NCBI GenBank assembly: GCA_019359075.1
Contig: JAHHIB010000053.1
Location: forward strand, 1-60,774
From: Kalymmatonema hyalinum WJT4-NPBG1
GTDB taxonomy: Bacteria > Cyanobacteriota > Cyanobacteriia > Cyanobacteriales > Nostocaceae
Reading direction: 5' to 3'
DNA: 60,774 nt
Of this stretch, positions 20,439 through 36,603 are shown in pieces. Every line of letters starts with the position of its first letter. The first letter of the stretch is position 1. The position numbers and the translations under genes are program-made. A model generated the notes under the pieces. That model saw only the letters and a program-made list of their open reading frames with translations. It was not told the DNA's origin and made no database searches.

Positions 20439-23027
20439 ATGAGTAGGTTAGTTGTTTTAAACTTAGGTCAGGGAAACCTACACGATGGCTTTGCCAGTGT
20501 TACGGCACAGGTTGGAGAAGCAGACAACCCCTACCTGACCAAATTAACTGCCAGTTTACCAGCCGCACCAAAAATTCCTGAACTCTACCAAAATTGGCAG
20601 TCGGTTTACTATGCTTTCTATCAACGTTTGAGTTGGCGTCTTGATATCGAGATAGACGATAATTTTGAAATTGAAGAAGGTTCTGTAACTAATATTTCAG
20701 AATCTGACATTAATAACTTATGTCAGATATTGTCAAAAAGAATGAATGCATGGCTTAACTCAACAAAATTTCGTAAAATTGACCAACAATTACGCACACA
20801 ATTAAAACCATCTGAAGAAATTCGCTTCATTATTGAAACCAACGATAATTTACTGCGACGACTTCCCTGGCATCTGTGGAAGTTCTTTGAGGATTATCCA
20901 TATGCGGAAGTTGCCTTGAGTGCTGCAGAGTATCAAAACCCAAATAAATTGCTTGTAAATAATCGCAAAGATAAAGTTAGAATTTTAGCAATTTTTGGCA
21001 ATAGTCAAGGAATTGATATCAGTCAGGATAGAAATTTTTTAGAAAAATTATCAACTCGAGCAGAAATTGAATTTTTAGTAGAGCCGAATCTGAGTTATTT
21101 AAACGAGCAGCTTTGGCAACAAGGTTGGGATATTCTCTTTTTCGCAGGTCACAGTTGCAGTAAAGAAAAAGGTTTGTTGCAAATCAATCAAATAGACACG
21201 ATAACCTTGGAGCAATTAAAATATGCTCTCAAACAAGCTATTAGTCGTGGTTTGAAGCTAGCAATTTTCAACTCTTGTGATGGTTTAGGTTTGGCGCAAC
21301 AGCTTCAGGATTTGCACATTCCACAAGTCATTGTCATGCGTGAGCCTGTACCGGATGTGGTTGCTCAAGAATTTTTAAAGTATTTTTTGGCTGAATTTTC
21401 GTCTGGAAAGTCTTTATACGCTGCGGTGCGTTCTGCACGCGAAAGACTGCAAGGATTAGAGGGGGAATATCCCTGTGCCACGTGGCTACCAGTCATTTTC
21501 CAGAATCCTGCTGAACCCCCTATGATTTGGTCACACAATGCACGGAATAAATGGAAACAGAAAACAGATTCCTCAATGCTGGCTTCGATGATAAATGCTA
21601 CAGGGGTGAAAACAAACATCAGATTCCAACTAGCAACTCCGATTCTCTCTAAAACAACGACACTCGATTCACTCATAGAGACACTAAATGGCAAGCTCCT
21701 AGAATTCCAGAATCGTCCCCTCAATCACACAGAAATTCTGGTTTTACAGGGCATTTGGCAAAGTCAAACTTACAACCAAATTGCTCAGCAGGGGGGCTAC
21801 AGTGCTGCCTACTTTACTAACGTAGTCGCCCCAGAGTTGCGCCAAAAATTGTCTTATCTTATCGGCAAGCGTGTGACTAAAAAGAACTGTCGGGTGTTGC
21901 TCGAGTCGTATGTCACTGAACAAACTTTTTCAAAAACAACACCACCAGGACAAAATCCTCCTACGGACTTTTTCCCCAATATCAAGCAGGAAATGTCGCC
22001 TCGCTTCCCCAGTGGTTTAGTTCCGCTTGACTCTCCTTATTACATTGAACACTCTTCAATTGAAGCACAGGTTTATGAAGAAATCATAAACCCAGGAGCT
22101 TTGATTCGCATTAAAGCTCCTCAGGAAATGGGTAAAACCTCGCTGCTGTTGAGGATTTTGGAATATGCTAAGCATATGGGCTACCAGACAGTGAGCCTGA
22201 ACCTGCAGGAGCAAGTTGACCAAAGCATTGTGAGCGATTTGAATCGTTTTTTGCGCTGGTTGTGTGCCAACGTCTCGCGCCAGCTTGAGCTTGAGCCAAG
22301 ATTAGACGACTATTGGGATGATGATATTGGCAGCAAAGTCAGCTGCTCCCTCTACTTACGAAATTATGTGCTAGAGCAAATTGACTCTCCTCTGGTTTTG
22401 GCTTTAGACGAAGTGAACCAGATTTTTGAGCATCCGCAAGTGGCGAAAGAATTTTTACCTCTGTTGCGTTCCTGGTATGAAGACGCCAAAAGACAGCCCA
22501 TCTGGCAAAAGCTGCGCCTGATTGTGGTTCACTCAACTGAAGTTTATGTTCCCCTCCAGCTTCATCAGTCCCCGTTTAATGTCGGACTACCGATTCAGTT
22601 AACCTGTTTTAGTTTAGAGCAGGTGCAGCAGTTAGCCCAGCGCTTTGGACTGACTTGGACAGACGGTGAGGAAGCAAGATTGTTGATGGACGTCGTTGGA
22701 GGACATCCTGCATTAGTACACCTGGCACTTTATCACCTCAGCCGTGCAGAAGTCACTCTAGCGCAACTGCTGCAAAGTGCTTCCACACCCACAGGGATTT
22801 ATTACCATCATATGCAGCGCCATTGGGCAACTTTGCAGGCACAGCCAGAATTAGCATCTGCTCTTTATACGGTGATGAGTGCGTCTGAAGCCGTACAATT
22901 AGAACCCATCGTTGCTTACAAGTTAAGCAGCATGGGGTTGATTAAGTTAGATAACAATAAATCTTTACCTAGTTGTCAGCTGTATAGGCAGTATTTTCAA
23001 CCAAAATTTCTTACTGCCGCAAGATAA
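20439..23027 (+). CDS. CHAT protease - AAA-like (STAND) NTPase fusion
   Basis: An 862-residue protein with three parts. Residues about 170-340 are a CHAT (caspase-like) peptidase with the catalytic dyad His238 (FFAGHS) and Cys280 (FNSCDG). Residues about 410-490 (HTEILVLQGIWQSQTYNQIA, ending RVTKKNCRVLL) are a winged-helix-like module common in cyanobacterial AAA-like proteins. Residues about 520-850 are an AAA-like NTPase with Walker A (PQEMGKTS, Lys566) and Walker B (LVLALDEVN). It is cytoplasmic. The arrangement suggests a sensor-NTPase that activates a protease in response to a signal, as in STAND-type conflict or cell-death proteins; this role is inference. No separate target gene is adjacent. 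The ATG lacks a clear ribosome binding site. Confidence 0.85.
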   Translation: MSRLVVLNLGQGNLHDGFASVTAQVGEADNPYLTKLTASLPAAPKIPELYQNWQSVYYAFYQRLSWRLDIEIDDNFEIEEGSVTNISESDINNLCQILSKRMNAWLNSTKFRKIDQQLRTQLKPSEEIRFIIETNDNLLRRLPWHLWKFFEDYPYAEVALSAAEYQNPNKLLVNNRKDKVRILAIFGNSQGIDISQDRNFLEKLSTRAEIEFLVEPNLSYLNEQLWQQGWDILFFAGHSCSKEKGLLQINQIDTITLEQLKYALKQAISRGLKLAIFNSCDGLGLAQQLQDLHIPQVIVMREPVPDVVAQEFLKYFLAEFSSGKSLYAAVRSARERLQGLEGEYPCATWLPVIFQNPAEPPMIWSHNARNKWKQKTDSSMLASMINATGVKTNIRFQLATPILSKTTTLDSLIETLNGKLLEFQNRPLNHTEILVLQGIWQSQTYNQIAQQGGYSAAYFTNVVAPELRQKLSYLIGKRVTKKNCRVLLESYVTEQTFSKTTPPGQNPPTDFFPNIKQEMSPRFPSGLVPLDSPYYIEHSSIEAQVYEEIINPGALIRIKAPQEMGKTSLLLRILEYAKHMGYQTVSLNLQEQVDQSIVSDLNRFLRWLCANVSRQLELEPRLDDYWDDDIGSKVSCSLYLRNYVLEQIDSPLVLALDEVNQIFEHPQVAKEFLPLLRSWYEDAKRQPIWQKLRLIVVHSTEVYVPLQLHQSPFNVGLPIQLTCFSLEQVQQLAQRFGLTWTDGEEARLLMDVVGGHPALVHLALYHLSRAEVTLAQLLQSASTPTGIYYHHMQRHWATLQAQPELASALYTVMSASEAVQLEPIVAYKLSSMGLIKLDNNKSLPSCQLYRQYFQPKFLTAAR

Positions 23028-23884: not shown

Positions 23885-26800
23885 ATGACCAACGTAACTC
23901 CAAATTCGCTAGGCATAACGCCTCAGTCAAATACTCAACAGCCTTTATCACCCTTCCCCAAGTCTATTCTGACTGTTAGCCAAGAAGAGCTACCAGACAC
24001 CGAAATGATTATTGATGGAACATTACCGGATGATTTGTCTGGTCATGTTTTTATCCTGGCTCCAGTAGGACATGTAGACTCTAAACGCAATGGTAGTGTT
24101 GTCTACCCATCCAAGGACGGCACACCACTTCCCAATGGCAATGGAATGATTTATCGGCTTGACTTTGACAAAGCTGGGACAGTGGGGTTAAAGTCCAAGA
24201 TTGCTAAAACGCCATGCTACTATGCCGATGAAGCAACAAAAGCAGGAACCGAAGCTGATGAGTATGGATTCCGTAATTTTGGCTTGGCACGTCTCTCACC
24301 TTGGTTAGGCGTACGCAGTGTAGCAAATACAGCACTGGTGCCGATGAAATTTGGGGACGAAAATGAACGTATGCTCGTGACTTGTGATGTGGGTCGTCCC
24401 TACGAAATCGATACACATTCTCTTGAGGTTGTAACGCCTGTTGGATCGAACAAAGAGTGGAGTGAACAGCTGCCACTCAATCTTCCTTTTGAAATGGTGA
24501 TGAATACGGCGCATCCTTACTTCGATGCCCACACGAATGAGCTGCTCACGGTCAATTACGGTAAGTCATTACGTACTCTTTTATCAACCATCTTCAAATC
24601 TGATGTGGAAAGTTTGCCACAAGCCTTCAAAAAAATCATTGAAGGGTTTACGAAAGGGTTTGCAAAATTACCAAAAGATAAGCAGAATATAAAAAACGTA
24701 GAAATCGAAGAAATCGAAAAAGAGATTCCTGAAGAGATTTTAAACAAAGAAATTGATGAAAGCCCGGAACGTCTCAAGAGTTTTTGGCAAAGATTGCGAG
24801 AACTGCTCAAAAAAGAGAAACAAGAGATAGAAGAAGAAGAGACAGAAGAAAAAGAAGGAAATGCTCGCGAACTGTTTAATGAATTAAAACAATTGATGGG
24901 ACTTGTCAGGCAAATGCTGGCAGGATTGGATGAAATTGATGATTTTGTCTATCTAATTCGCTGGGATGGTAAAAGTGAGTTAGAAAGATGGCAAGTGACG
25001 CTTCCTGATGGTTCACCGATTAAGATTAGGCAAACAATACATCAAATTGCGGTAACTCAGGATTATGTGGTATTGGTAGACACAGGTTTCAAAGTTGGTC
25101 CGGAGCAGCTGATTACCAAACCAGTTATCAAGAATAAGAAGCTACAAAGCCTGCTCAGAGATGTACTAAATGAGCCTGTATCATCCGAAACGAACTTATA
25201 TATCGTGCGTCGTGCTGACCTGAAAGCCGGACAGCGCCCAGCATTTAGTCAAAAGGAAGTTAAGGTTGTCGCGCAGCCGGTGGAGATACCTGAAGCATTC
25301 ATTCACTTTCAAGTTGACTATGACAATCCTCAAAATCAAATCATTCTTCACGTTGCTCATAGTTCTGCCTGGGATGCATCTGAATGGCTAAGGGACTATG
25401 ACAAAACCTCACTTTCACCTTCAAACCCAAACCGTCCTGTGGGAATGATCTCTGGTCCAGTGGACATTCACTCGCTCGCAAGATATGTGATTGACGTGGA
25501 GAAGGGATTAGATGAGGAAAAGACTAGGGTGATTAGCGATCGCCAAGAACTACAGCAGTTGACTTGGGCTGTCGCAATCAATACCTACAACGAACACGCC
25601 GCCCCGAAAAAGCTTGACAATATTTACTGGAATTCCTGGGGATGCTCTGCGGATTTGCTATCCGATTTCGTTGTTGACCTGTATGAAAATGATAAAAATT
25701 ATCCTCGTCGGAATTTATCAGTGGAGGAAGTCCGAGAAATCACAAAAGAGGGTAGACCTGCAAACATATGTCGGTTGGTGACAGACTCTAAAGAATCAAT
25801 GGCGATCGCCGACAGTTACAAGTTTCACCCAGGTTACTTTGGCAACTCAATTCAGTTCATACCACGGACTGGTAGTGACGGTAGCTCAACCGATGGTTAT
25901 ATTGCATCTACAGTTATCTCTGACAACCCTGAAAAAAGCGAAATCTGGATTTTTGACGCCAACGATCTGACTCGCGGTCCCCTTTGCAAGCTGAGTCATC
26001 CCCAACTCAACTTTGGATTTACTACCCATACGACTTGGTTACCCAAAATTGCACCCCGCACAGCAAGCTACTACATTCCTGTGCGTGAGGATTTTGAAGA
26101 GCGGGTCAAAAAACAGCCTCGTGAAATCCAGAAACTGTTTGAAGAATCGGTCTACCCCAAATTTCCTCGAACAGGCTGGACATCTGTTCCTGATTCCGTC
26201 ATCGACGCCACCCGGGAAGAACTCGACATTAAGCTGAATATTCTTGAGTCAAAATTGCCAGGTGGAAATCTACCAGATGGACTACACGGTCACGTTTTCA
26301 TCATGGGTCCAGTGGGTTCTGTTGATTATTCTAAAGGTCTTCCCCGCCCTAATGGCGATCCAATCTTCAATAGTGATGGCATGATTTACCGACTCGACTT
26401 TAACCAAAAGGGAGAAGTTGGTTTAAAGACACGGATTACCAAACCGCCATGTTACTACGCTGACGAAGCAACTCAAGCTGACACTAAATATGCTGAGCAT
26501 AGATTCGACAATTTTGGCATCGCACGATTCTCGCGTTCCCTAGGCTCTCGCAACCAGTTAAATACTGCTTTTGTGCCGATCTATGGTGGAGAAGAACGCG
26601 ATCGCTTGCTAGTCACTTGTGATGCAGGTCGTCCCTATGAGATTGATACAGAAACCCTTAAAGTTGTCACGCCTGTTGGAACAAACAAAGAGTGGCGTCC
26701 ACAAATCAAGCTGAATTTGCCGTTTCCACCTGTCCTAACCACAGCCCATCCTGCCTTTGATGCTCACACTCGTGAGGTATTTACCGTCAATTATGGTCGG

Positions 26801-28243
26801 TCATTATCTAATTTTCTCGAAACTATACCTGCCATTGACAAGGCAGATGAATTTTTTGATCAAAAGGCAGATGAATTTTTTGATGAAGTTAATGAATCTC
26901 TAGCAAATAACGTTTTCAAGACCTTTTCCCAGGTATCTAACAAACTTCGTCAATTCCGTAACAAATTTATTTCATCAGACATCAGTCTAATACCTCAGGA
27001 TTTTGTTTATCTCATTCGTTGGAATGGTGTTGGTGACTTAGAGCGATGGAAGTTAGTACATGAGGATGGAAGTCCTGTTGAAATTGAGCAATCTCTGCAT
27101 CAGATTGGAATTACTAGAGATTATGTTGTCCTCGTGGACACAAATTTCAAAGTTGGCATCGCTCAGGCATTCAACAATCTTTTTCCCTGGAATGAAAAAG
27201 TAGAGGGACTCATAAGAAAGTTAGTGACGCTGCCAGTATTACCTGATACTACAATTTATATTATCCGCCGTAGAGACTTGAAAGACGGACAACGTCCAAA
27301 AGTTAGTCCGGAGGAAGTTAAAGTTGTAGCGCACAAGGCAGTCATCCCACAGGGTGTCATCCACTTTGTCTTAGATTACGAGAATCCTGACAACCAAATT
27401 ACGCTCCACGCAACCCACAACAGTGCAGATGTTGCTGAGTGGCTGCGCCAGAACGACAATTTAGCTTCTAGCCCCGAAACTTCCGTACCGTCCAATCTAG
27501 TAGGTATGCTGACTAGTGTGACAGACGTTAGCCGTCTTGGTCGGTATGTCATAGATGGTGAAAGCGGAGAAATTCTTGAGTCAAAGGTGTTATCTGATTC
27601 CAAACACACTTGGGGTGTAGGGCTTTATACGTACTGTGACAGGTTATCAACAGGTCTACCTTCAGGGCAGCTAGAAAATATTTACTGGCAGTCTTCGGGA
27701 TTCTGGCAAGAGCTAAGTACAAAATTTGTCTTTGACCTATACAAAGATGACAAAAACCGGGTAGTGTCACCGAAGAAACTACTTCAAGCAGACAATGGAC
27801 GGAGCAAATCCTCTTGCTTATTCCGTCTAAATGCAATAGACATGAAAATTGCTGACGCCTATGAGTTTCCTGTCACTTCTGTTAACGGTAAATCGGATAG
27901 TCACATGGTATTGTCTCCGCAGTTTGTTCCCCGTGCTGATGGTGACGGTAGTTCAACTGATGGTTACATCGTTTGTACTGTTGCCTCGGAAAACCGCGAT
28001 GAGATCTGGATTTTTGATGCCAAGAATCTTGCTCAAGGACCTCTTTGCAAGCTTGGTCATTCCTCACTGAATTTTAGTTATACAATACATACAGCTTGGT
28101 TACCTAAAATTGCGCCTCGTACAGCAAGTTATAACTGTGGCGTGCGCGAGGATTATCAAGAGCAAGTGAAAAATTCTCCAGATCTTCAAAAACTGTTTGA
28201 GACGAAAGTTTACCCGCATTTTGAGGGAAACTCAGCTGGGTGA
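23885..28243 (+). CDS. Double carotenoid oxygenase (two RPE65/CCD domains in one chain)
   Basis: A 1452-residue protein made of two similar halves (about 1-770 and 775-1452), each a carotenoid cleavage oxygenase domain. Both have the first blade (GTLPDDLSGHVFILAPVG; GGNLPDGLHGHVFIMGPVG), DEATKA/DEATQA, and VTCDVGRPYEIDT-like segments. Four histidines fit the iron ligands in each half: 210, 386, 474, 715 and 955, 1072, 1160, 1402. The spacings H2-H3 (88 and 88) and H3-H4 (241 and 242) agree, so both sites may be active. Between H1 and H2 each half has an insertion: about 120 charged, Lys/Glu-rich, probably coiled-coil residues (232-352) in the first, and about 60 (977-1039) in the second. Ordinary family members have one domain of about 480 residues. 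The substrate is unknown; cleavage of carotenoids or apocarotenoids is expected. Confidence 0.85.
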   Translation: MTNVTPNSLGITPQSNTQQPLSPFPKSILTVSQEELPDTEMIIDGTLPDDLSGHVFILAPVGHVDSKRNGSVVYPSKDGTPLPNGNGMIYRLDFDKAGTVGLKSKIAKTPCYYADEATKAGTEADEYGFRNFGLARLSPWLGVRSVANTALVPMKFGDENERMLVTCDVGRPYEIDTHSLEVVTPVGSNKEWSEQLPLNLPFEMVMNTAHPYFDAHTNELLTVNYGKSLRTLLSTIFKSDVESLPQAFKKIIEGFTKGFAKLPKDKQNIKNVEIEEIEKEIPEEILNKEIDESPERLKSFWQRLRELLKKEKQEIEEEETEEKEGNARELFNELKQLMGLVRQMLAGLDEIDDFVYLIRWDGKSELERWQVTLPDGSPIKIRQTIHQIAVTQDYVVLVDTGFKVGPEQLITKPVIKNKKLQSLLRDVLNEPVSSETNLYIVRRADLKAGQRPAFSQKEVKVVAQPVEIPEAFIHFQVDYDNPQNQIILHVAHSSAWDASEWLRDYDKTSLSPSNPNRPVGMISGPVDIHSLARYVIDVEKGLDEEKTRVISDRQELQQLTWAVAINTYNEHAAPKKLDNIYWNSWGCSADLLSDFVVDLYENDKNYPRRNLSVEEVREITKEGRPANICRLVTDSKESMAIADSYKFHPGYFGNSIQFIPRTGSDGSSTDGYIASTVISDNPEKSEIWIFDANDLTRGPLCKLSHPQLNFGFTTHTTWLPKIAPRTASYYIPVREDFEERVKKQPREIQKLFEESVYPKFPRTGWTSVPDSVIDATREELDIKLNILESKLPGGNLPDGLHGHVFIMGPVGSVDYSKGLPRPNGDPIFNSDGMIYRLDFNQKGEVGLKTRITKPPCYYADEATQADTKYAEHRFDNFGIARFSRSLGSRNQLNTAFVPIYGGEERDRLLVTCDAGRPYEIDTETLKVVTPVGTNKEWRPQIKLNLPFPPVLTTAHPAFDAHTREVFTVNYGRSLSNFLETIPAIDKADEFFDQKADEFFDEVNESLANNVFKTFSQVSNKLRQFRNKFISSDISLIPQDFVYLIRWNGVGDLERWKLVHEDGSPVEIEQSLHQIGITRDYVVLVDTNFKVGIAQAFNNLFPWNEKVEGLIRKLVTLPVLPDTTIYIIRRRDLKDGQRPKVSPEEVKVVAHKAVIPQGVIHFVLDYENPDNQITLHATHNSADVAEWLRQNDNLASSPETSVPSNLVGMLTSVTDVSRLGRYVIDGESGEILESKVLSDSKHTWGVGLYTYCDRLSTGLPSGQLENIYWQSSGFWQELSTKFVFDLYKDDKNRVVSPKKLLQADNGRSKSSCLFRLNAIDMKIADAYEFPVTSVNGKSDSHMVLSPQFVPRADGDGSSTDGYIVCTVASENRDEIWIFDAKNLAQGPLCKLGHSSLNFSYTIHTAWLPKIAPRTASYNCGVREDYQEQVKNSPDLQKLFETKVYPHFEGNSAG

Positions 28244-28536: not shown

Positions 28537-31500
28537 ATGATGATGATTCCTGGCATTGAAGTCACAGCCTGCATTTATGAAAGTGCCAGTACCCTAGTTT
28601 ATCGAGGTATCCAAACTCAGGATAAAAAACCTGTTATTCTCAAGGTTTTGAACAAGGAATATCCCACTCTAGAGGAGCTGGCTAGATACAAGCAGGAATT
28701 TGAAATAATAAGTTCGTTAAACATATCTGGAGTGGCAAAGGCATACAGCTTAGTCAAATATCAGAGGGCTTTAGTCATTATTTTGGAGGATTTTGGTGGT
28801 GAATCTTTAAAAAGATTGATAAATACAAGAAAGTTAACGCTGGCAGAATTCCTCTTAATTGCCGTACAGACTGTTGACAATCTAGCAAAAATCCACTCTG
28901 CTAATATTATTCACAAAGATATTAACTCTTTCAATATTGTTTTCAACTCAGAAAGCGGGGAAGTCAAACTTATTGACTTTGGTATTTCTACAGTTTTTTC
29001 CCCAGAAAACTCCACAATTAAAAATGCCAATATTTTAGAGGGAACTCCAGCCTATATTTCGCCAGAGTTAACTGGTAGAATAAACCACCCATTCGATTAC
29101 CGCACTGATTTTTACTCTCTGGGCGTAACTTTTTATGAACTACTAACCAATCAGCTGCCTTTTCAAACGACCGATTTGATGGAATTGGTACATTCTCATA
29201 TTGCTAAAAAACCTGTACCTCCCCATGAAATAAATCCGGATATTCCTCTGGCTATTTCCAATATTGTTATTAAATTGTTAGCTAAAAATGCTGATGATAG
29301 ATATCAAACTGCTTGGGCAATTAAAGCAGATTTAGAAGAAAGCTTGCTCCAACTTCGGGCAAACGGCAAGATTTCCAACTTACCCATTGCTTCCCAAGAT
29401 ATTTCTAAGAATTTTCAAATTTCCCGAAAACTATATAGTAGAGAGCGAGAAATTGAAACTCTACTGGCGGCATTTGAGAGAGTGGCGTCTGGGCAGGAGA
29501 AACGAGTCAGTCATGGAAACCCCCCTACGCCTCCTAGAAGTGAAGTAATGCTGTTATCTGGATATTCGGGCGTTGGTAAATCAGCGTTAGTTCGAGAAGT
29601 TTATAAGTTCCTTGCCCAGCAGCCTGGTTATTTCATTTCTGGCAAATTTGACGAATTGCAACGCAATATTCCTTATTCAGGGTTGATCCAAGCATTTCGG
29701 AAATTAATCAAGCAACTGCTAACCGAAAGTGAATCACACCTCAATCAATGGAAAGAAAAATTGTTAGACGCATTTGGACCCAATAGTCAAGTGCTGATTC
29801 GTGTAATCCCTGAAGTAGAATTGATTGTCGGCAAGCAACCGCCAATGACTGTATTGTCATCGAAAGAATTCCAAAATCGGTTTAATTTAGTATTTCAAAA
29901 GTTTGTTCAAGTTTTTACTCAACCAGAACATCCGCTAGTCATGTTTCTGGACGATTTACAGTGGGTGGATAGTGCTTCATTACAATTGATACAACTGCTG
30001 ATGACGGCAGGGAATAGTCAATATTTGTTTTTGATTGGTGCTTACCGTGATAACGAAGTGAACCCCAATCATCCATTGACACTAACGTTAGATAAAATCC
30101 AACAATCAGGGACTATTGTAAATTCTCTTCAACTTTCACCTTTGGATTTGCAAAATATTAATCACTTAATTGCAGATACTTTAAATTGTTCTTTGGAAAA
30201 AGGAAAATTACTGGCAGAGTTAATCCTTAGGAAAACCAATGGTAATCCTTTCTTTATTAACCAGTTTTTGCAATCCCTTCATCAAGAAAAGTTGTTATAT
30301 TTTGAGTTCTCTTCTCTTACCTATGAGGGAAAATGGCAATGGAATTTAGAGCAAATTCAGGCGCGGGGTTTTACAGATAACGTTATTGAACTGATGGTTA
30401 GCAAGATTGAAAAGTTGTGCCGTGATACACAAGATGTGTTGAAGCTGGCAGCCTGTATTGGCTATCAGTTTGATATTGAAATAATAGTAATTATCAATAA
30501 AAAGTTAAATAAAACCCCACAAGAAACAATGGTGTTGCTGCGTGAAGCAGTGGCAGAAGGTTTTATCTTGCCCCTGAACGATGCCAACAAGTCGATTGAG
30601 CCAGATTTGTCACAACAAGAGCAACTCAACGTTGAATACAAGTTTGCCCATGACAGGATTCAGCAAGCAGCATATTCTTTGATTCCATCAGACTGCAGGA
30701 GCGGCGTCCATCAAAAAGTGGGTCAACTGCTGCTGCAAAATACTCCACCAGATAAGCGAGAACGGAACATTTTTGAGATTGTCAACCAATTGAACTTGAG
30801 CATTGAATTAATTAATTCTCAGTCAGAGCGGGATGAATTGGCTTCGCTTAATCTGATCGCTGGTCAGAGAGCGAAAGGGACAGTTGCCTATGAACCAGCA
30901 TTGAGATACCTGAAAATCGGCATAGAATTGTTGGCGGAAAGTAGCTGGCAAAGGCAGTATGACCTGACGCTGGCGTTGTATGTGGAAGCAACAGAGGCAG
31001 CATATCTGGGCGCTAACTTTGAAGAGATGGAGAGATTGGCTGAGGTGGTACTCTGTAAAGCTAAAACGTTGTTGGACACAGTGAAAGTCTATGAGGTTAA
31101 AATCCAAGCCTGTATGGCACAGAATCAGCCACTAAAAGCTTTAAAGATTGTGTTACCAGTGGTGAAATCTTTGGGAGCGAGATTTCCGGAAAAACCGAAT
31201 CAATGGAATATTTGGATTAGTTTACTAAGTACAAAATTTTCTTTGGCAGGGCACAAAATTCAAGACTTAATTGAATTGCCGGAAATGACCGATCCTTACA
31301 AACTTGCAGTAATGGACTTACTAGCCAAAGTAAGGGTCGCGGCATATTTGACTTTTCCCCAACTATATTTACTGATTGTGTTTGAAGAAATTAATTTATT
31401 AGTCAAATATGGAAATATTTTTGACTCTGCTTGTGTCTATGCTGCTTACGGGATGATTCTCTGTGGAGTCATAGGAGATATTGATTCTGGGTATCAATTT

Positions 31501-34008
31501 GGTCAACTTGGTATGAAAAACTTAGAAAAATTAAATATAAATTTTCAAGACAACAGGGCATTGCATCTCATTAATGGCTTTATAAGACATTGGAAGGAAC
31601 ATGGAAACCAAACATTAAAACCGCTGGCAGAAGCCTATAAAATAGGAATAGAAAGTGGAGATTTTGAATTTTGCAGTTATTCTGCATTTATGCATTGTTT
31701 CAATGCTTATTGCATTGGTGAGAATTTAAGAGAAATTGAGCAGCAGATATGCTCGTATAGTACCGCTATCAATAAGCTCAAACAAAAAACTATTTTGAAT
31801 TATCTTCAAATATTACATCAAACAGTTTGGAAATTAATGGAGCCATCTGAAGTTGAATATTCTTGCCAATTAATTGGTGAATTATACAACGAAGAAAGAA
31901 TGCTACCGATTCATCTCGAAGTTAACGATAAAACCGCCATTTGCAATGTGTATTTACATAAACTGATCCTCTGTTATTTATTTCAGGATTACTTTCAAGC
32001 TGTTAAAAATGCAACCACGGTTCAAAAGTATTTAGGCAGTGCTACAGCTTCACTCCTTGTTCCTCTATTCTATTTCTATGATTCTTTGGCGCGACTTGCT
32101 GTTTTCGGTGATGTTGCCAAGTCAGAACAAAAACGCCTCCTGAAGCAAGTTACAAATAACCAGAAGAAAATGAGAAAATGGGCAGATCATGCCCCGATGA
32201 ATTATCTACACAAATTTTATTTAGTAGAGGCTGAACGCGCTCGTGTGTTGGGCAAAGATAAGGAAGCTAGGGAATATTATGATCGAGCGATCGCCTTGGC
32301 ACACGAAAACGAATATATCAACGAAGAAGCGATCGCCTACGAACTAGCAGCCAAGTTTTATCTGGACACAAACCAAGACCATGTAGCTCGCCACTACCTG
32401 CAAGATGCTCACTACGCCTATGGGCGCTGGGGGGCTACAGCCAAAGTAAAAGACTTGGAAACGCGATATCCACAGTTTTTGAGTCAAGCCAATAAAGGTT
32501 ATCTTGAGACTACTTTATCCACTTCGACCACAGGGCAAAATGCATCTCTAGTTTTAGATACTAACAGCGTACTTAAAGCCTCACAGACTATTTCCGGCGA
32601 AATCGTCCCAGACAAATTGCTGGAAAAGTTGATGAGAATTCTGATTGAAAATGCAGGCGCTCAAAAAGGTTTTATGATTCTAGAGCGGGAAGGTAACTGG
32701 GTTATTGAAGCTCAAGGAACTGTAGATTCAGATGACGTTACGCTACTCCAATCCATTTCAGCAAACTTCATAGATCCTGAAACTCAAATTCCCCTGTTGT
32801 CAGCCGCCATCATCAACTATGTTGCTCACACTCAGGAAAATGTGGTCTTAAATAATGCTGCCCATGAAGGACAATTTACCCGCGATCCCTACATTATCTC
32901 CACTCAACCCAAATCAATTCTCTGTACTCCTCTACTCAATGGCGGCAAACTCAGCGGCATTTTATATTTAGAAAATAATCTCACAACGGGCGCGTTTACG
33001 ACCGAGCGCATTGAAGTTTTAAAAATCCTTTCTGCCCAAGCGGCTATCTCTATTGAAAATTCTCGTCTCTACGAACAGTTGGAGGATTACAGCCGGACTC
33101 TAGAACAGAAGGTGGAGACGAGAACCCAGGAATTACAAGAGAAAAATCAGGAGTTGGCAAATCTCCTGCAAAAGCTCAAAGCCACCCAAGCTCAAATTGT
33201 TGCCCAAGAAAAATTGGCTTCTCTGGGCGCTTTAACAGCGGGCATTGCTCATGAAATCAAAAATCCCTTAAACTTTGTTAACAACTTTGCTGAACTTTCT
33301 GTAGAGTTAACTCAAGAACTGCTCGAAGAGATTGAAAATCAAAAAGACCGATTAGATCCAGAATCTAGAGAATACATTGAAGAAATTTTAAATGATCTTA
33401 AACAAAACGCTAGAAAAATTAATGATCACGGCAAAAGAGCAGATAATATAGTGCGTGGGATGCTGATGCATTCTCGGGGGCAAAGTGGCGATCGCCAACA
33501 AACCGACATCAACGCTTTGCTAGCGGAAGCTATTAGTTTAACTTATCATGGAATGCGTGCTAAGGATACTTCCTTTAACATCGTTATAGAAACTGATTAT
33601 GATGATGAACTTGGTCTAGTGAATGTTGTGCCGCAAAACATCAGCCGTGCTTTAATAAATTTTATCAATAACGCTTGCTACGCTGTATATAAAAAGAAAA
33701 TGCGTTTTCAGGTAGAGCCAGGGCACGAGGGTGAAGAGTTTTCACCTACGCTTTCAGTCAGCACTAAAAATTTGGCTAAGCAGGTAGAAATACACATCCG
33801 AGATAATGGCGAAGGCATTCCCCAGGAGTTGCTCGATAAGATTTTTAATCCTTTTTTTACCACTAAGCCACCTGGCGAAGGAACTGGTTTAGGTCTATCT
33901 ATTACTCATGATATTATTGTCCAGCAGCATCAAGGAGATATCAGAGTAGAAAGCGAAGTAAAGTCTTATACACTATTTATAATCACTTTGCCGAAGACTT
34001 TTCTCTAG
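28537..34008 (+). CDS. Trifunctional Ser/Thr kinase - AAA ATPase - GAF - histidine kinase (HstK type)
   Basis: An 1823-residue hybrid kinase. Residues 1-275 are a complete eukaryote-like Ser/Thr kinase: Lys36, HKD (126-128), Asn133, DFG (147-149) and GTPAYISPE. Residues about 300-620 are an AAA_16-type ATPase with Walker A around Lys348 ([10 protein letters not shown]) and Walker [11 protein letters not shown] helical, TPR-like middle (about 700-1310) follows. A GAF sensor lies at about 1355-1510, a coiled coil at about 1515-1555, the phosphoacceptor His1572 ([13 protein letters not shown]), and a HATPase with DNGEGIP and GTGLGLS. The protein appears catalytically complete at both ends. Two response-regulator genes follow within 18 and 24 bp, so it probably phosphorylates them. 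Related HstK proteins occur widely in filamentous cyanobacteria; the input signal is unknown. No membrane segment is visible. Confidence 0.93.
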
Positions 34009-34026: not shown

Positions 34027-34395
34027 ATGAAAATAATGGTTGTAGATGATGAACAAGACGTGCAATTTTTATTTGAGCAAAGATTTAGAAGAGAACTCAG
34101 ACAAAATCAAATTACCTTATCTTTTACCTTGTCAGCAGAGGAAGCACTAAACCAATTACAAAATAACCAAAGTAAGTGTTTATCCCTGATATTAACAGAT
34201 ATCAATATGCCTGGAATGAACGGGCTAGAATTACTCAAAATTATTAAACAAAATTTTCCTCATTTAAAAGTGTTTGTCATCACTGCTTATAACGATGAAA
34301 ATAATTACCAAACAGCTAAACAATATGGAGCTGATGAATATATCACAAAGCCAATTGAATTTAACAAACTTAAGGAAAAAATATTGAATTCGTAA
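34027..34395 (+). CDS. CheY-like response regulator, receiver domain only
   Basis: A 122-residue single receiver domain: acidic pocket DD (7-8), phosphoacceptor Asp58 in LTDINMPGMNG, Thr/Ser switch in FVITAYND and Lys in YITKPIEF. It has no output domain, so it acts by protein contact or as a phosphate shuttle. It begins 18 bp after the hybrid kinase and 24 bp before a second regulator, a tight operon that implies a phosphorelay between them. Confidence 0.92.
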   Translation: MKIMVVDDEQDVQFLFEQRFRRELRQNQITLSFTLSAEEALNQLQNNQSKCLSLILTDINMPGMNGLELLKIIKQNFPHLKVFVITAYNDENNYQTAKQYGADEYITKPIEFNKLKEKILNS

Positions 34396-34419: not shown

Positions 34420-36603
34420 ATGCCAGCTAAAATACTGGTTGTGGATGATGAGCCTGACTTAGAACCGCTGCTTTGTCAGGTATTTAGAAAAAAAATTCGG
34501 CAAAAGCAATTCCAATTAATTTTTGCCCATGATGGTTTAGAAGCACTAGAAAAGCTGCAAGCCGAACCGGATATAGATATAGTTTTAACCGATATCTATA
34601 TGCCGGAAATGGATGGGCTAACTTTACTTACTAAACTTAATGAGTTATATCCCATCATTAAAGCAGTCATTATTTCTGCCTATGGCGATATAGAAAATAT
34701 CAGAACGGCGATGAATCGGGGTGCTTTTGACTTCCTGACTAAGCCGATTAATTTTCAGGATTTAGAAATTACAACCAACAAAACTCTGGAACATGTGCAG
34801 CGGATGAAAGCGGCTCATGAACAGGAGCGTTTAGCACAGCAGGCTCAAGCAGAATTATTAACCCGTTTGCAACAAGAGGTGACTGAACGCCAGCGAGCAG
34901 AGGAAGCATTGCGCGAAAGTGAGAGAAGGCTGGCTCAATTTTTGGAAGCTTTGCCAGTGGGTATATTTGTTATTGATGCTAACGCTCAACCCTACTACGC
35001 TAATCAAACGGCAAAGCAGATACTCGGCAAAGGAATTGAACCTGGAGCGACAACTGCACAATTGACCGAGATTTATCACGCTTATCTAGCGGGGACGGAA
35101 CAGTTTTACCCCAACGAGCAGCAACCCATTGTGCAAGCATTAAACGGCAAAAGTACAACTGTTGTTGATGATATGGTGATCCACCAAGCTGACAAAATTA
35201 TCCCTTTAGAGGTGTCAGCAACCCCGATTTATGATGATAAGGGAGAAATTGTCTATGCCATAGCCGCCTTTACTGATATCACCCAACGCAAACAAGCGGA
35301 AGCGGAACGGATTCAGTTTACCCAAGAATTAGCACTTAAAAACACCGCCTTGCAGCAGGCAAAAGACGCATTAGCCGAATCCAACCGTACCTTAGAACAA
35401 AAAGTCGAAGAGCGTACTCGCGAACTCTCACAAACGCTAGAAATTCTCAAAGCCACTCAAGCTGAATTGGTATTTGAAAACGCTCTGCTTAAAAATGCAG
35501 AACAATCTTCAACTTTTGATTATCAAGTAGGCGGTAGTTTGCCAATGAATGCTCCTACATATGTGGTGCGTTCCGCAGATCGTTTGCTCTATCAAGCACT
35601 GAAGCGTGGAGAGTTTTGTTACATTTTGAACACACGCCAGATGGGCAAGTCAAGCCTCATGGTACACATGATGGACTATCTCCAAAAAGAGGGGTTTAGC
35701 TGTGCAGCGATTGATATCACTCGCCTTGGTAGTGAAAACGTGACTCCTGCTCAATGGTACAAGGGATTTGCCGTGGAGTTATGGCAAAATTTTAATTTGT
35801 TTGGAAAAGTCAATCTGAAAGCTTGGTGGAATGAGGAAAAAGATTTATCGCCTATCCAATGCTTGAGCAGATTTATAGAGGATATTATACTTGGTCAGGT
35901 TAAGAATGAAAAGGTATTTATTTTTGTAGATGAAATTGATACTGTCTTGGGCTTAAATTTTCCAGTAAATGACTTTTTTGCTCTCATTCGTTCTTGCTAT
36001 AACCAACGTAGTATTAACCCAGAGTATGAACGTTTAAGTTTTGCTTTGTTTGGAGTAGCAACACCTTCAGATTTGATAACTGATCCCCAAAGAACGCCTT
36101 TTAACATTGGTCAAGCAATTCAACTTAATGGCTTTCAAATTCATGAAGCTCAACCTTTACTTTATGGATTGACAGAAAAAGTGAGCAATCCACAAGTGAT
36201 GCTGAAAGAAGTGTTAGCTTGGACAAGCGGTCAACCTTTTCTGACTCAAAAACTTTGTAAACTCATACGCCGTGCTTCATCCCCGATTCCTACAAATAAT
36301 GAAGCACAATGGGTTGAACATTTGGTGCAAACTTGTGTGATAGACAATTGGGAATCTCAGGATGAGCCAGAGCATCTAAGAACTATACGTGACCGAATTC
36401 TCAACAGCGAACAGCAACCTGTTCGGCTAGTAGAACTTTATCAACAAATTTTGCAGCAAGGAGAAGTTGTCTCTGTAGACTCTCCAGAGGAAAGGGAGTT
36501 GCTCTTATCGGGGCTAGTTGTCAAGCAACAAAGTTCTTTAAAAGTGCATAACCGTATTTATGAATTAATATTTAATCGTAGTTGGATCAATCTGCATATT
36601 TAA
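34420..36603 (+). CDS. Response regulator with PAS domain and AAA-like NTPase output
   Basis: A 727-residue cytoplasmic protein. Residues 1-125 are a receiver (DD at 8-9, Asp58 in [11 protein letters not shown], Lys in LTKPINF). A coiled coil (about 130-170), a PAS domain (about 168-290; [20 protein letters not shown]) and a second coiled coil (about 300-360) follow. Residues about 370-700 are an AAA-like NTPase with Walker A (RQMGKSS, Lys410) and Walker B (FIFVDEID, Asp504-Glu505). After the [20 protein letters not shown] coiled coil one would expect a histidine kinase; here the AAA-like domain takes its place. That domain is the same type as in the CHAT protein at 20439-23027. It is probably the end output of the kinase cascade; its action is unknown. 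Confidence 0.88.

Follow-up and report, generated by a model that had tools for sequence, protein, structure and literature searches.

A protein with two divergent domains of the carotenoid cleavage dioxygenase type, encoded beside a dual kinase gene in the cyanobacterium Kalymmatonema hyalinum

The window is the whole 60,774-nucleotide stretch of contig JAHHIB010000053.1 from Kalymmatonema hyalinum WJT4-NPBG1 (GCA_019359075.1). It encodes a 1452-residue protein, called here the double protein, which contains two domains of the carotenoid cleavage dioxygenase (CCD) type with eight conserved histidines and a changed second shell. Both halves are kept by purifying selection, they occur in other genomes as a tandem pair of genes, and their neighbourhood, which includes a giant kinase gene, is conserved. 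CCDs are known from the chemistry of pigments, vitamin A, hormones and lignin. The reading favoured here, at a probability of about 0.5, is that the double protein is a fused pair of CCD-type metalloproteins that makes or senses a small-molecule signal for the kinase. If true, an enzyme of the carotenoid type may feed a signalling pathway.

The open reading frame (23885-28243, plus strand) begins with ATG and has no internal stop. Against the Pfam profile PF03055, with a cut-off of 27 bits, residues 1-770 (half A) score 121.6 bits and residues 771-1452 (half B) score 121.2 bits. This bears out the original prediction of two complete carotenoid oxygenase (RPE65/CCD) domains in the 1452 residues; it had divided the chain into residues 1-770 and 775-1452, and both sides match the profile, not one only. 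The halves align with each other at 583 bits and 45% identity over 753 columns (BLASTP), a likeness beyond chance. The four candidate iron ligands of each half (H1 to H4, Table 1) lie exactly where they had been placed, with the same spacings in A and B of 88 and 88 residues for H2-H3 and 241 and 242 for H3-H4. The H1-H2 spacing is unequal (176 and 117) because of a longer insert in A, and the PF03055 match to half A falls in two stretches with a long insert between them. All eight histidines align column for column with the four of 32 ordinary CCD rows. Each half, modelled separately, is predicted to be a CCD propeller at low confidence (mean predicted local distance difference test, pLDDT, 59.6 and 52.7), and fold comparison of the models finds the seven blades of the CCD fold.

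The metal site was compared between 70 rows of the divergent CCD family to which both halves belong (both halves of the six known fused proteins counted) and the 32 ordinary CCD rows. H1 to H4 are histidine in 69, 70, 70 and 69 of the 70 family rows, the two misses being rows cut by contig ends; all four are present in 68/68 complete rows and in 32/32 ordinary CCDs. A 2025 paper (PMC12051055) states that a Thr, Val or Ile occludes the sixth iron position in CCDs, and gives the second-shell residues as Glu/Asp. According to a review (PMC5133782), three of the His are hydrogen-bonded to three Glu, which mutagenesis showed to be needed. The occluding position is Thr in 62/70 and Ile in 7/70 family rows, Thr in 30/32 and Ile in 2/32 ordinary CCDs, and Thr in both halves of the double protein. 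It was mapped through what we take to be residue T136 of Synechocystis ACO; the other ACO numbers used are likewise assumed, and agree with the His spacings of the CCDs in the window's own genome.

The second shell differs. At the position of ACO Glu150 the family has Asp (68/70) or Glu (1/70), compared with Glu (31/32) or Asp (1/32) in ordinary CCDs. At ACO Glu426 it has Ser (65/70), Thr (3/70) or Ala (1/70), compared with Glu in 32/32. ACO Glu370 aligns with Thr1242 by hhalign, whereas the multiple alignment sets a Glu two columns off; column 1242 holds Thr in 57, His in 7, Asn in 4, Leu in 1 and Glu in 1 of the 70 rows. The three Glu of the second shell are therefore not kept as a set in the divergent family, with the alignment at ACO Glu370 uncertain by two columns. 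Asp or Glu is frequent at 1238 (55/70), 1252 (59/70) and 1276 (66/70), and a replacement carboxylate elsewhere for a missing Glu is possible. By these residues, the family looks like a candidate metal-binding one with an altered second shell. If iron ligands are kept, second-shell Glu lost, and kinases and STAND NTPases are the partners, the role of the second shell in CCDs could be probed naturally through this family.

The same residues bear on whether one or both domains are non-catalytic sensors, which would bind metal and a carotenoid or other hydrophobic ligand, or O2 or nitric oxide at the iron, and signal by contact with the kinase. An intact first shell beside a second shell changed across the whole family fits such sensors, as does the association with several different NTPase signalling proteins described below. 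However, the four His and the occluding Thr are equally expected of an oxygenase, a carboxylate is kept as Asp at one second-shell position, and others are possible, such as the Asp/Glu at 1276. We consider purely sensory domains a rather unlikely alternative.

Sequence relationships make a fusion of two adjacent old paralogues, A and B, the best reading of the double chain, as elsewhere the two are separate neighbouring genes that keep this order. A tree of 40 proteins places the six fused A halves in one clade and the six fused B halves in a second (100/100 each). In a tree of 69 rows, with support from the Shimodaira-Hasegawa-like approximate likelihood ratio test (SH-aLRT) only, fused A joins three tandem A genes with a support of 96, and fused B sits among B-type and single-domain genes. 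The separate genes lie in the order A-B on the same strand in four genomes (G034, G393, G431 and G432), each pair being followed on that strand by the kinase gene. In G393 they overlap by a few nucleotides, and in G430 A and B are found at the ends of two different contigs. In G034 they are about 60 nucleotides apart, and two in-frame stops between them rule out that its apparent 1518-residue open frame is a fused protein.

A recent internal duplication is ruled out, since the identity between A and B is only 45%, compared with 76-95% between each half and its counterparts in the five other fused proteins, and each half forms a clade of its own. An assembly artefact is ruled out by the presence of the same fusion in six genomes. 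Degeneration of one half is also ruled out, as both have the four His and a dN/dS (ratio of nonsynonymous to synonymous substitution rates) well below 1. The original prediction had suggested a fixed dimer; this stands with the amendment that the dimer is likely a fixed heterodimer, A and B being distinct paralogues found in tandem elsewhere, and that the physical pairing of A with B is itself presumptive. The A-B fusion is a ready construct for asking whether two CCD domains cooperate.

The double protein occurs in five other genomes, all of Scytonema or Brasilonema, at 77-95% identity: Scytonema sp. NIES-4073 (95%), and Scytonema sp. RU_4_4, Brasilonema sp. CT11, Brasilonema sp. UFV-L1 and B. 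angustatum (77-78%). Measured against these orthologues, dN/dS ranges over 0.18-0.30 in half A and 0.22-0.32 in half B, as purifying selection on each would give. Among 217 genomes of the same taxonomic family, 39 have a member of the divergent CCD family and six the double form, the window's own genome counted; among 386 genomes sampled across the phylum, 18 have a member. Single-domain members are the common form. The window's genome itself has a second, single-domain member of 718 residues (L074, G000:C68:10136-11884; C68-type subclade), as well as four ordinary CCD genes. As regards mobile or viral cargo, four plasmid records carry a member, and a single search of viral contigs for six peptide patterns gave no relative. 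A Bernardetia plasmid (Bacteroidota; L186:8992-11199) carries a member with 35% identity beside a glutamine synthetase III gene; it lacks the kinase and may reflect transfer between phyla.

A second kind of double CCD chain is encoded by a 1252-residue open reading frame in genome G492 (L166, 2502-6260, minus strand). Its residues 1-750 are a divergent-family domain of another subclade, 89% identical to a family gene of genome G420 (L151). Residues 765-1252 are an ordinary CCD with canonical second-shell motifs, 66% identical to the L003 CCD of the window's genome. In L151 a gene of its own, some 70 base pairs from the family gene, encodes the ordinary CCD. As the L166 chain is independent, family members have come to be paired with a further CCD-type domain at least twice.

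Such pairs would suit an ordinary carotenoid cleavage enzyme with two sites, which cuts both ends of one carotenoid or makes two successive cuts, as the original prediction proposed. The four His, the occluding Thr and the purifying selection in both halves are consistent with this, and so are the neighbouring flavin adenine dinucleotide (FAD) enzymes at some single-domain loci. Yet the single-domain form is the common one and often has the same kinase neighbour, so that the basic function does not call for two sites. Glu is missing from two of its second-shell positions and the third aligns with Thr (hhalign), the identified neighbours in the window are signalling genes, and the genome already has its four ordinary CCD genes. 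Cleavage of both ends of a carotenoid by the double protein is possible but unsupported by these comparisons, and a cleavage enzyme of the ordinary kind is unlikely.

The kinase gene is a conserved neighbour of the family. Its product resembles the cyanobacterial dual Ser/Thr-His kinases, which we take to be of the HstK type, in having all five of its domains (Table 1) in one chain. A difference is that kinases of its type, whole or in part, adjoin a divergent-family gene in 42 of 67 loci. They are on the same strand in 42/42, downstream in 35 and upstream in 7, at a nearest distance of at most 465 nucleotides. They are present in 6/6 fused loci and 4/4 complete tandem loci, and also in many single-domain loci. 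No such kinase lies beside 31 ordinary CCD genes, examined with flanks of up to about 1.5 kb. A tree of 20 linked kinases and the CCD-domain tree largely agree in their groups; common to both are L061 with L062 (tandem), L067 with L078, the six fused loci, and L060(L065)/L066/L068/L069/L070/L075/L077. The 8.4-Mb genome of the window has at least six near-full-length kinases of this type among at least nine matches, with 150 of 212 candidates scored.

That the association is incidental, the gene simply moving within signalling-rich islands of large cyanobacterial genomes, is very unlikely. In favour of it, some members are on plasmids (the four records), the genome abounds in AAA_35 genes (18 places) and NB-ARC genes (at least 22 places, with 150 of 210 candidates scored), and the linked kinases are not one exclusive clade. 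Against it, a single kinase type sits this close and on the same strand in 42/67 loci from several genera and families, the kinase and CCD trees largely group alike, and the kinase is beside 0/31 ordinary CCD genes.

If the double protein is instead a fused CCD-type pair serving the kinase, its parts can be arranged as follows. A and B would be old paralogues of a divergent four-His CCD-type family, covalently joined in the Scytonema/Brasilonema group and physically paired. Each domain would use its four His to bind a metal, and its probable task would be to oxidise, or else just to bind, a conjugated hydrophobic compound. Either the product or the state of occupancy would be read by the giant Ser/Thr kinase-AAA-GAF-His kinase, and the double protein would most likely act upstream of this kinase and of the response regulators. 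More broadly, the residues and neighbours of the divergent family make it look like a metalloprotein of the CCD fold that has specialised in working alongside signalling NTPases and kinases. A tentative extension is that cyanobacteria use a dedicated four-His family of the CCD fold as the sensing or signal-making part of NTPase and kinase systems, with dual kinases in the main clade and NB-ARC-WD40 STAND proteins in another, the double protein being the fused heterodimeric form; bacteria would then have signalling that is carotenoid-derived or coupled to oxygen. This would raise the question of whether apocarotenoids or a CCD-type iron site serve as bacterial signals.

Several observations weigh against the signalling pair. 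Metal binding, oxidation, the substrate, the contact of A with B and signalling to the kinase are inferred, and with its second shell changed the protein might have a weaker oxygenase activity or none. The neighbourhood is an association, not a mechanism; the 42 are not independent events, given that the loci are related and a single genome supplies more than one of them in some cases. The kinase was not found in 25/67 loci, of which at least L072, L154, L167 and L176 are truncated at contig ends. The linked kinases are not one exclusive clade, since four paralogues from the window's genome that adjoin no family gene branch between them at unresolved forks. A-type relatives apparently occur alone in five rows (L035, L037, L038, L071 and L080; fork support 89, drawn open), so A seems not to be strictly bound to B. 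The tandem A genes of G034 and G393 lie outside the group with a support of 96. Fused B groups with a long-branched Bernardetia row, a type of join that the program warns of, and not with the tandem B genes; the fused gene therefore need not descend from the tandem pairs. Finally, an FAD amine-oxidase-like neighbour, present at the seven loci of one subclade, would fit a metabolic role.

Table 1. Features of the double protein and its neighbours in the window
Feature	Positions	Strand	Length (residues)	Description
CHAT-AAA_35 protein	20439..23027	+	862	Pfam; next large gene upstream of the double protein
Domain A, residues 1-770	23885..26194	+		Divergent CCD/RPE65 domain; candidate ligands His210, His386, His474, His715; occluding Thr149; second-shell positions Asp168, Thr560 (uncertain), Ser655; long insert between H1 and H2, predicted mostly helical
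Domain B, residues 771-1452	26195..28243	+		Divergent CCD/RPE65 domain; candidate ligands His955, His1072, His1160, His1402; occluding Thr894; second-shell positions Asp913, Thr1242 (uncertain), Ser1344
Dual kinase	28537..34008	+	1823	Pkinase-AAA_16-GAF-HisKA-HATPase_c (Pfam); next gene downstream of the double protein
Single-domain response regulator	34027..34395	+	122	Pfam; downstream of the kinase
Response regulator-PAS-AAA_35 protein	34420..36603	+	727	Pfam

Most of the identified neighbours of family genes are signal-transduction genes, and a few single-domain loci have FAD-enzyme neighbours. A relative of the 122-residue response regulator also follows the kinase in L056 and L059 (BLASTP). 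On either side of the CCD and kinase genes the window encodes an AAA_35 protein; the upstream one carries a CHAT (caspase-like) domain, the downstream one a response regulator and PAS. An AAA_35 protein is encoded upstream on the same strand in 21/67 loci, within 500 nucleotides in 10; L187 would be the 22nd, with a match only outside AAA_35. The C68-type subclade has an NB-ARC-WD40 protein of the STAND class (about 1190 residues) directly upstream in 9 of its 10 loci (L074, L079 in pieces, L146, L151, L157, L163, L166, L179 and L180), the NB-ARC domain being checked with Pfam in two of the nine (L146 and L166); L176, the tenth, is truncated at a contig end. In another subclade, the seven loci L067, L078, L165, L168, L170, L171 and L177 have an FAD amine-oxidase-like (PF01593) gene directly downstream, and the dual kinase is upstream in five of them. 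None of these partner types (NB-ARC-WD40, AAA_35, FAD amine-oxidase-like) is present in the short flanks of the 31 ordinary CCD genes.

The family was compared with carotenoid cleavage oxygenases of PF03055, namely Synechocystis ACO (2biw), the stilbene-cleaving NOV1 (5j53) and LsdA (6ojw), and CAO1 (5u8x). Common to both are the Pfam profile, the propeller by fold comparison, the four His and the occluding Thr. In contrast, the divergent domain has about 650-850 residues, roughly 40-60% more than an ordinary CCD, its median His spacings are 119, 88 and 240 compared with 52.5, 67 and 180, and its identity to CCD structures is only 9-20% in structure alignments. The replaced second-shell Glu, the two domains per chain and the signalling neighbours are further differences. 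The best NCBIfam match, NF053780 (lignostilbene-alpha,beta-dioxygenase NOV2), gives 77.2 bits at a cut-off of 650, and NF053778 (lignostilbene dioxygenase) gives 60.4 bits at a cut-off of 800, so that the double protein is a member of neither. A known defence system was considered and rejected: the double protein has no match in PADLOC, and the downstream kinase matches 33 PADLOC models, the 25 listed being for the most part PD-T4-6 and further kinase models. Among the titles and abstract openings listed from the open-licence literature, none was recognised as describing a CCD with two domains or a CCD-kinase pair, which is weak evidence of novelty. Between positions 23000 and 28700 a promoter scan gives 8 promoter-like sites compared with 11.3 in shuffled sequences, which is no excess, and 8 terminator-like sites compared with 4.5; neither result was used. 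The window contains no tRNA gene.

Split and fragmentary family genes are counted in the 67 loci, and in several cases two loci belong to the same genome. L072, cut by a contig end, is left out of the 69-row and 70-row sets, and L167, cut at its start, is left out of the trees. The trees also omit the fragmentary or split L063, L064, L076, L152 and L181, and the duplicates L178 (=L038), L183 (=L037), L179 (=L040), L180 (=L042) and L182 (=L035). L060, the same gene as L065 (G001), is not counted in the kinase-neighbour tally; L184 and L185, whose contigs match those of L059 and L058 in length, are likewise not counted, and a Kovacikia relative (H1) is not included. In addition to the 20 linked kinases, the kinase tree holds four of the five other near-full-length paralogues of the window's genome, L085 being dropped as its frame runs off the locus. 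In L063, L064, L076 and L181 the family gene is apparently split into two reading frames, with the pieces of L063 about 0.9 kb apart.

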